This document shows positions 6,337 to 63,089 of a DNA stretch of 64,000 bases, in pieces. Below the pieces are notes generated by a model that had not been told where the DNA came from, searched no databases, and was given only the letters and a program-made list of their open reading frames with translations. The first letter of the stretch is position 1, and each line of letters begins with the position of its first letter. The translations under genes and the position numbers were made by a program. Source of the DNA: Bacillota bacterium (GTDB lineage: Bacteria > Bacillota > Clostridia > SK-Y3); assembly GCA_022360955.1 (NCBI GenBank), contig JAKSBV010000203.1, positions 1 to 64,000 of the forward strand, written 5' to 3'.

Positions 6337-6340
6337 TTTG

Positions 6341-7183
6341 ATGTTAATAAATATTGTCAGTACTGCAAACAAAACTTTCAAACATATAAAAGCGCTGGGG
6401 CGTAAGAATTACAGAGAAAAGCATAAAGAGTTTGTGATTGAAGGGGTGCGTCTGTTAAAAGAGGCGCTCCAATCCCATGCTCCGATCAAAGCCGTGCTCG
6501 TCAGCGAGAGCTTTTTAAAAAACGATCAAAACCGAGCATTTTTAGACAAGCTTTTAATGGATGTCAATAACCGTCCTTCCCACTCCCCACCCCCCACCCC
6601 CCACTCCATTTACACCTGCAATGACCGTATGTTTAAAGAGATGACGCATACGGAGACACCCCAGGGGATTTTGGCTGTCGCAGCGGTGCAGTCGCATTCG
6701 CTAAAGGATATCACAGAAGATCACAGGCCTTTTTTTGTGTATTGCGATGCCGTACAGGACCCCGGCAATATGGGTACCATCATTCGGACGGCAGATGCTG
6801 CAGGAGCAGATGCGGTTATAGTATCCGGAGGTTGTGCCGATATCTACAACCCTAAAACGGTGCGATCTACAATGGGCTCCTTGTTTCATTTGCCGGTAAT
6901 TAAGGTTGAGGATAGCAGGGCGGCCTTATCCGACTTGAAAGAGAGAGGATTAAAGGTTATTGCAGGACATTTGTGCGCAACGGCAAAGAACCATTTTGAA
7001 GTAGACATGAAAAGAGGGCTGGTGCTGGTCATAGGAAATGAAGCAAACGGTGTATCGAAACCAATTGTTGAACTTTCCGATTATATTGTGAAAATACCCA
7101 TATTGGGTCGTGCGGAATCATTAAATGCCGGGATTGCTTCGGGGATATTAATGTATGAAATCGTGAGGCAGCGCATGAAATAG
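6341..7183 (+). CDS. SpoU/TrmH-family RNA 2'-O-methyltransferase
   Basis: Predicted SAM-dependent RNA ribose methyltransferase; the target (rRNA or tRNA) cannot be told. Residues about 1-105 form the L30e-like substrate-binding domain and the rest the knotted SPOUT domain with the three usual motifs: DAVQDPGNMGTIIRTADAAG, VLVIGNEANGVS and IPILGRAESLNAGIAS. Length is 280 residues. A loop of about 12 residues just before the first SPOUT domain (RPSHSPPPTPHS) is encoded by a heptamer array (6576-6603) that belongs to an intergenic repeat family, so it looks like a repeat insertion tolerated by the protein. Start ATG at 6341, 4 nt after ktrA, with GGAAG upstream. A terminator hairpin follows. Confidence 0.88.
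   Translation: MLINIVSTANKTFKHIKALGRKNYREKHKEFVIEGVRLLKEALQSHAPIKAVLVSESFLKNDQNRAFLDKLLMDVNNRPSHSPPPTPHSIYTCNDRMFKEMTHTETPQGILAVAAVQSHSLKDITEDHRPFFVYCDAVQDPGNMGTIIRTADAAGADAVIVSGGCADIYNPKTVRSTMGSLFHLPVIKVEDSRAALSDLKERGLKVIAGHLCATAKNHFEVDMKRGLVLVIGNEANGVSKPIVELSDYIVKIPILGRAESLNAGIASGILMYEIVRQRMK
6576..6603 (+). repeat. Heptamer array, 4 units, inside the methyltransferase gene
   Basis: Units CTTCCCA, CTCCCCA, CCCCCCA, CCCCCCA followed by CTCCATT. It is read through in frame and encodes a proline-rich loop. Because a unit is 7 bp, gain or loss of one unit would shift the frame. Confidence 0.75.
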
Positions 7184-7355: not shown

Positions 7356-7479
7356 CATAGGAAAATATTGGTGCGCAGCTGGCAGTATAGGGTTTACGGA
7401 TGATTAGGCATTTGTGAATTTACAGGATAACCAAGGCAAACAATGAAATCTTCAACAAAAATGCGGCTTTGCTGCATAA

Positions 7480-7507
7480 CTGTCAACTGTCCATTGTCAG
7501 CTAATAT
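7480..7507 (+). repeat. Heptamer array before dprA
   Basis: Units CTGTCAA, CTGTCCA, TTGTCAG, CTAATAT. Almost the same order of units recurs at 63114-63141 before nusA. Confidence 0.6.
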
Positions 7508-16894: not shown

Positions 16895-17597
16895 GGTCAT
16901 GAAATCTTTTCAAATTAATGTGGGAGCACCATTGACGGTTGATCCTATTGATGTTGAACAGACACAAAACGAACAATCTCCGGCTGATGAGGCACGGCAA
17001 TTAGTGGACGATGCTTGTGCGGAAGCGGAAAAAACAATTAATGATGCCAATAAAATGGCTGAAAAAATATTGGAAGATGCCCGGCAACAGGCTGAAAAGA
17101 TGCGATTAACGGTCTTAGAACAGGCTAGAGAAGAAGGATACCGGCAGGGGCATGAGGAAATTACGCAAAAAGCGGAATCTTTACTTAAGGAAGCAGAGGA
17201 AATCAGGGAAAGGGCGCAGCAAGAATATCAGGCCTTGTTGGAATCGGCAGAAAAAGATATTGTGGACCTTGTTTTAGACATTACCCAAAAGGTTATTGGT
17301 GATGAAGTCGAATCCAGACCTGAGGCTGTTCATTCACTGGTAGTTCAGACGCTGCATAAATGTAAAGGTGCTGAAACCGTCATTATAAGAGTTTCACCAT
17401 CGGATTACGAAACCGTCAGACAAAATAAAGATGCGATTATCCAGCAAAGCGCATTTTCCGGAGAAGTTACCGTCAAAAAGGATCTGTCACTCAAATCCGG
17501 AGGGTGTATTGTAGAGACCCCCGGCGGGAAAATCGATGCCGGCTTTCGGACACAGCTTAAAGGGATTGAGGAAGCATTTAATGAGTTGTTGAATTAG
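16878..17597 (+). CDS. fliH: Flagellar export ATPase regulator FliH
   Basis: FliH dimers hold the ATPase FliI inactive and dock it to the C-ring. The 239-residue form has a long coiled-coil rich in A/E/K/Q (about 45-120) and the conserved C-terminal V-ATPase E-like domain (VDLVLDITQKVIGDEVESRPE, GGCIVETPGGKIDAGFRTQL). The start is not certain: ATG 16878 is given, but TTG 16887 (9 nt after GGGGGAG) and ATG 16899 are possible; all overlap or abut the fliG stop. Just before fliI. Confidence 0.92.
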   Translation: MKSLSRVMKSFQINVGAPLTVDPIDVEQTQNEQSPADEARQLVDDACAEAEKTINDANKMAEKILEDARQQAEKMRLTVLEQAREEGYRQGHEEITQKAESLLKEAEEIRERAQQEYQALLESAEKDIVDLVLDITQKVIGDEVESRPEAVHSLVVQTLHKCKGAETVIIRVSPSDYETVRQNKDAIIQQSAFSGEVTVKKDLSLKSGGCIVETPGGKIDAGFRTQLKGIEEAFNELLN

Positions 17598-17599
17598 TA

Positions 17600-17627
17600 G
17601 GGAGTGGGGAGTAGGGCGTGGGGAGTG
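17600..17627 (+). repeat. Heptamer array forming the fliI start region
   Basis: Units GGGAGTG, GGGAGTA, GGGCGTG, GGGAGTG run from three bases after the fliH stop into the first codons of fliI. The array supplies both the GGAG-like ribosome site and the GTG start codon (17618). Confidence 0.75.
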
Positions 17628-63054: not shown

Positions 63055-63089
63055 ATGGTGGATGGTGGGTAGTGAGTAGTGGGTAGGCA
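63055..63089 (+). repeat. Heptamer array, 5 units, after rimP
   Basis: Units ATGGTGG, ATGGTGG, GTAGTGA, GTAGTGG, GTAGGCA, starting one base after the rimP stop. Confidence 0.75.

Follow-up and report, generated by a model that had tools for sequence, protein, structure and literature searches.

A dispersed heptamer array, probably tolerated in frame, in a loop of a SpoU/TrmH-type methyltransferase of Clostridia

The window, a stretch of 64,000 nucleotides from the genome of a Bacillota bacterium (class Clostridia), carries on its forward strand an open reading frame (ORF) for a SpoU/TrmH-type RNA 2'-O-methyltransferase at 6338–7183, comprising 281 codons from the TTG at 6338, with an ATG at 6341 by inspection. 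The neighboring ORFs, judged from their translations, are presumably trkH- and trkA-like upstream and dprA- and topA-like downstream. The protein consists of an N-terminal MRM3-like substrate-binding (L30e-like) domain (6368–6676, residues 11–113, Pfam MRM3-like_sub_bind), which holds the repeat insert, followed by a SPOUT catalytic domain (6731–7156, residues 132–273), both on the + strand. The catalytic domain is intact, with the SpoU_methylase profile covered almost end to end (E = 1.9e-39), and the conserved SpoU/TrmH (SPOUT) motifs are present as invariant columns across 42 sequences. Against the RlmB family (TIGR00186), the protein scores 147.6 bits, below the curated cut-off of 160.15. 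The solved structure scoring best against the protein by sequence is 7qiu.

The array occupies 6582–6605 on the + strand and reads ACTCCCC, ACCCCCC, ACCCCCC, and a closing ACT, giving three units plus three bases, one of the three units differing from the other two. Tandem Repeats Finder reports it with period 7, 3.7 copies, and 94% matches at 6579–6604, and with a score of 16 it is the top lag-7 run of the window, where five such runs score at least 11, whereas first-order Markov shuffling, repeated 20 times, yielded 0.0 of them on average. An earlier note, made from the letters alone, had placed four units at 6576–6603. The array itself is real, but its proposed first unit (6576–6582) matches the repeat poorly, and the phase used here was set to match the other arrays of the genome, which leaves three units and ACT. 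The proline-rich loop described in that note was borne out, with residues 82–90 encoded in frame as HSPPPTPHS. Its location "just ahead of" the SPOUT domain was not, since the array lies within the L30e-like domain and ∼40 residues before the catalytic domain. By inspection, the ACTCCCC/ACCCCCC unit type contains no stop codon in any sense-strand frame. On the opposite strand, four G tracts match a quadruplex-type pattern at 6579–6602, one of three such pattern matches in the window. Other arrays in the window include an AACTGTC-type array of the same grammar in the spacer immediately downstream of the methyltransferase gene (7478–7499, + strand), a G-rich spacer array at a gene junction (17596–17627, AYT strand minus), and an array in the usual position just past a stop codon (63055–63086, AYT strand minus).

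The array belongs to a genome-wide class with the grammar AYT-(N-Y-Y-M-A-Y-T)n and a length of 7n+3, in which arrays usually begin and finish on AYT. Four consecutive MAYTNYY units were matched 250 times in the genome of the window (G000), as compared with five times for the reversed pattern, and 326 versus 5 and 59 versus 9 times in its relatives G004 and G003, respectively; the pattern was derived from G000, such that only the other genomes provide an independent test. At least one match was found in 68 of 291 genomes of the taxonomic class. Lag 7 is the commonest lag in the samples of G000, G004, and G001, whereas lag 14 outnumbers it in G003 (42 versus 33 per Mb), and no lag-7 arrays were found in the samples of G002 and G005, both of which are small. 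The G000 sample contains 57 lag-7 arrays in 372 kb, a density biased upward by the choice of part of the sample through pattern matches. In the 51 arrays that fit the motif, its second position is A in 99% of cases and its fourth is T in 86%, the fourth also being the commonest array end (25 of 51). The fit threshold of at least 0.88 has little discriminating power, since the reversed control reaches it in 30 of 57 cases; for exact fits the counts are 22 versus 2.

The units follow a dialect specific to the genome. By a hand count that includes overlapping matches, ACCCCCC is present in 22 of 27 array matches of the window's genome, in none of 11 from G003, and in 1 of 16 from G004. A unit so common here and so rare in relatives suggests that it was copied from arrays already present in this genome. 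Comparison of the G000 stretches with themselves gave three weak pairs, among which no clear empty site was found.

To judge position relative to genes, arrays of at least three units were collected from 1.81 Mb of G000, G003, and G004, with gene calls being plain ORFs of at least 100 amino acids, whose stops are sure and starts unsure. This gave 86 arrays versus 8 in the reversed control. Only two are located inside ORFs, as compared with ∼64 expected from an ORF interior of 75% of the sequence, and thus the statement of the earlier note that such arrays otherwise lie in spacers holds almost without exception (84 of 86). Eleven two-unit arrays within ORFs were left out of the real ones because the reversed control stood at 31 versus 157. 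The window array is one of the two exceptions to this avoidance of genes. The second, in G003 (L191:8779-9798), sits in the linker between the Cob_adeno_trans and HbpS-like domains of a fused protein and is missing from both aligned homologues (G001 and G016). Both in-gene arrays have n = 3, a net 21 bases that keeps the frame. Two cases, one of which was the starting case, do not prove a rule confining in-gene arrays to multiples of three units, as n is divisible by 3 in 38 of 77 spacer arrays in any event.

Outside genes the arrays favor one location. With the ART strand taken as sense, 39 of the 84 non-internal arrays have a stop codon within 20 bases, as compared with 1 of 84 on the other strand, and random placement in spacers put 6.7 arrays near stop codons on average and never more than 14 in 300 trials. 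This bears on the possibility of an effect exerted by the DNA itself, in which the four template-strand G tracts of the array form a quadruplex that slows transcription. The pattern match at 6579–6602 is compatible with such an action, and in vitro evidence of quadruplexes is presented for G-rich heptamers of other bacteria in the available text of PMC4692102. The preference for stop codons is, however, independent of G-richness, arrays of all three composition classes lying just after them (AT-rich, 17 of 39; intermediate, 15 of 26; GC-rich, 7 of 19). This extension to AT-rich units speaks against quadruplex formation as the cause of the siting, and we regard a quadruplex effect on the methyltransferase gene as extremely unlikely.

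In the protein, the array falls in a loop of residues 78–89 (6569–6604, + strand), predicted to be a coil between a helix (residues 63–77) and a strand (residues 90–94). In an AlphaFold2 model built from 42 sequences (mean pLDDT of 94.6), this loop is the least certain stretch. All 60 genomes searched gave a match to the protein, some of them only through other superfamily members, and an orthologue is found in each of the six genomes of the family, the other five being 55–62% identical to the window protein. Two anchor motifs enclose 43 residues in the window protein, as compared with 31 in four of these family members and 35 in one. The alignment with orthologues suggested in the earlier note, made here at the level of the family, therefore points to a likely insertion, since the loop is absent from all five other family genomes. 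Across 110 aligned sequences, the same stretch ranges from 21 to 59 residues and is longer than that of the window protein in 3 of the other 109. On these alignments, the loop is a novelty of this protein, or at any rate not shared, and its site tolerates changes of length. The window protein exceeds its four nearest-length relatives by a net 12 residues, more than the seven codons of three units, and the remaining five, left unexplained by the array, may be ordinary loop variation.

A loop on a domain annotated as substrate binding, with longer counterparts at the same place in a few other sequences, could have been selected as a functional extension of that domain. The predicted low-confidence coil, the composition of the loop, which tracks the DNA repeat of this genome, and its absence from the family relatives all argue against such a role, which we consider very unlikely. 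Rather, the data are best accounted for by a dispersed heptamer array that lies in frame in a permissive loop, where the conserved methyltransferase probably tolerates it.

Because seven is not a multiple of three, the earlier note had also raised the possibility that single units switch the reading frame, and the computed products agree with this. Changes of −2, −1, +1, and +2 units would give proteins of 90, 99, 97, and 106 amino acids, respectively, all truncated before the SPOUT domain, while −3 and +3 units leave the frame open. One-unit slippage could accordingly turn the gene off and on again, making the methyltransferase phase-variable. Whole-unit variation was observed in the relative G003, of the same family, where a ∼220-base element is repeated at dozens of sites (85 matches) and ends in a heptamer array bounded by constant flanks. 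Of the 21 copies with a readable end, 20 carry an array of exactly 7n+3 bases, four copies having n = 2, three n = 3, twelve n = 4, and one n = 6; in the remaining copy, L231, this position is taken by a different heptamer type. Two copies with identical 119-bp bodies differ in unit number (n = 4 versus n = 2).

The rate of unit-number change in these copies was estimated from distances to the consensus, with n = 4 taken as the start and half a count added to each distance. L231 and L246, the latter having a different body, were dropped. The remaining 19 of the 21 copies gave 11.7 (5.3–22.0) changes per array per substitution per site, and removal of the most diverged copy gave 17.7 (8.0–33.8) with 18 copies, values that may miss repeated changes and hence be low. 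A rate of 100 times per-site substitution was strongly disfavored. Unit order is the same in 10 of 11 copies with n = 4 apart from single-base variants, the exception being L216, which argues against saturation. The tree of the 19 copies is nearly unresolved, with no starred branches, and its use was limited to showing a star-like burst; unit number was unclustered on it, with all 200 shuffles giving a value as low. Heptamer units are thus gained and lost singly in G003, but slowly by the yardstick of simple sequence repeat (SSR) contingency loci, for which the available text of PMC11868660 cites 100–10,000 times the basal rate. The comparison of ∼12–18 times with that range draws on a mobile-looking element of G003 with the same heptamer type, rather than on the methyltransferase locus.

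With this slow rate set against the whole-unit variation and the truncating frame shifts, phase variation of the methyltransferase appears unlikely. The array comprises just three units, one of which deviates from the others, and it is found in the middle of a gene for an enzyme kept in every genome of the family. A switch is mechanically possible in principle but is not supported by rate, unit number, gene position, or kind of gene. The presence of the array in the gene is therefore most likely an accident that is tolerated; a genetic on/off switch is not proven, and the locus probably undergoes no selected switching.

The tolerated array can be placed in a simple sequence of events. The ancestral site probably carried a single AYT, and the array would have arisen in, or been copied into, the indel-tolerant loop. 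It would then have been kept because three units amount to a net 21 bases, or seven codons, leaving the frame open, and because its unit type offers no sense-strand stop codon. The protein would thereby gain a proline-rich loop on its substrate-binding domain, and the enzyme with the extra loop is most likely functional. A broader proposal is that an active heptamer-writing process operates in these Clostridia. AYT trinucleotides would serve as seeds for arrays in a genome-specific dialect, and blocks of 7n bases would then be copied or rewritten, chiefly at stop codons and occasionally in genes, where only three-unit blocks would survive. The L231 copy of the G003 element, with its different heptamer type, would then look like a case of overwriting. 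We put this forward as a speculative and rather unlikely generalization.

Short tandemly repeated repetitive (STRR) heptamers of the CCCCA-N-T type are known from cyanobacteria, a different phylum from that of the window's genome. Close parallels in the literature include the G-rich heptameric repeats GGGNATC of Xanthomonas and GGGGA(C/T)T of Nostoc, which, as described in the available part of PMC4692102, likewise have 7-base units, few per array, and are dispersed, mostly intergenic, and near sense-strand stop codons. The G-rich strand of the window array, reading GGGGAGT, resembles these heptamers. Unlike them, the present class has a degenerate grammar that includes AT-rich units unable to form quadruplexes, to which the positional rule also applies, and whereas 68% of the Nostoc repeats are given there as intergenic, only 2 of 86 arrays here are inside ORFs. 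The TAACTGA direct repeats of Beggiatoaceae, Cyanobacteria, and Bacteroidetes are, according to the sections of PMC4679880 available, also dispersed and mostly intergenic, as here, with ORF-internal copies nearly always at ORF ends. They consist, however, of one fixed heptamer found mostly just before start codons, in contrast to the many unit types seen here, often just after stop codons. In Geobacter metallireducens, the portion of PMC2700814 consulted describes dispersed elements of four or five tandem heptamers, one class of which also occurs within genes, and another heptanucleotide class with the degenerate consensus MTYCTGA; their consensus differs from that of the window class, and they are annotated as putative regulatory elements. 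The window array shares with SSR contingency loci a unit that is not a multiple of three and a location inside an ORF, whereas hypermutability and variation in unit number would be hypothetical for this locus. No account of such arrays in Clostridia was found in the literature searched, which is not proof of absence.

Heptamer arrays are among the less explained bacterial repeats, and those described here combine a degenerate grammar over many unit types, a length of 7n+3, and siting at stop codons whatever the G content. Copies of a dispersed element allow the rate of whole-unit change to be estimated, and an array within a gene offers a natural test of the frame rule, while the consequence for the methyltransferase itself is probably small.

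Several further observations concern the repeats and their surroundings. The G003 element (L211-L240, L246-L259) has inverted-repeat segments and is REPIN-like in appearance. Some draft contigs start at or within heptamer arrays (G000:C65:2-186, G000:C253:4-24, and L154:1-20), and arrays may consequently break assembly and be under-counted. The backward pattern is commoner than four-unit MAYTNYY in G019 (70 versus 1) and G286 (24 versus 11) and so is not a neutral control in every genome. Its matches are numerous in G019, in G191 (38), and in G286, where another heptamer class may exist.
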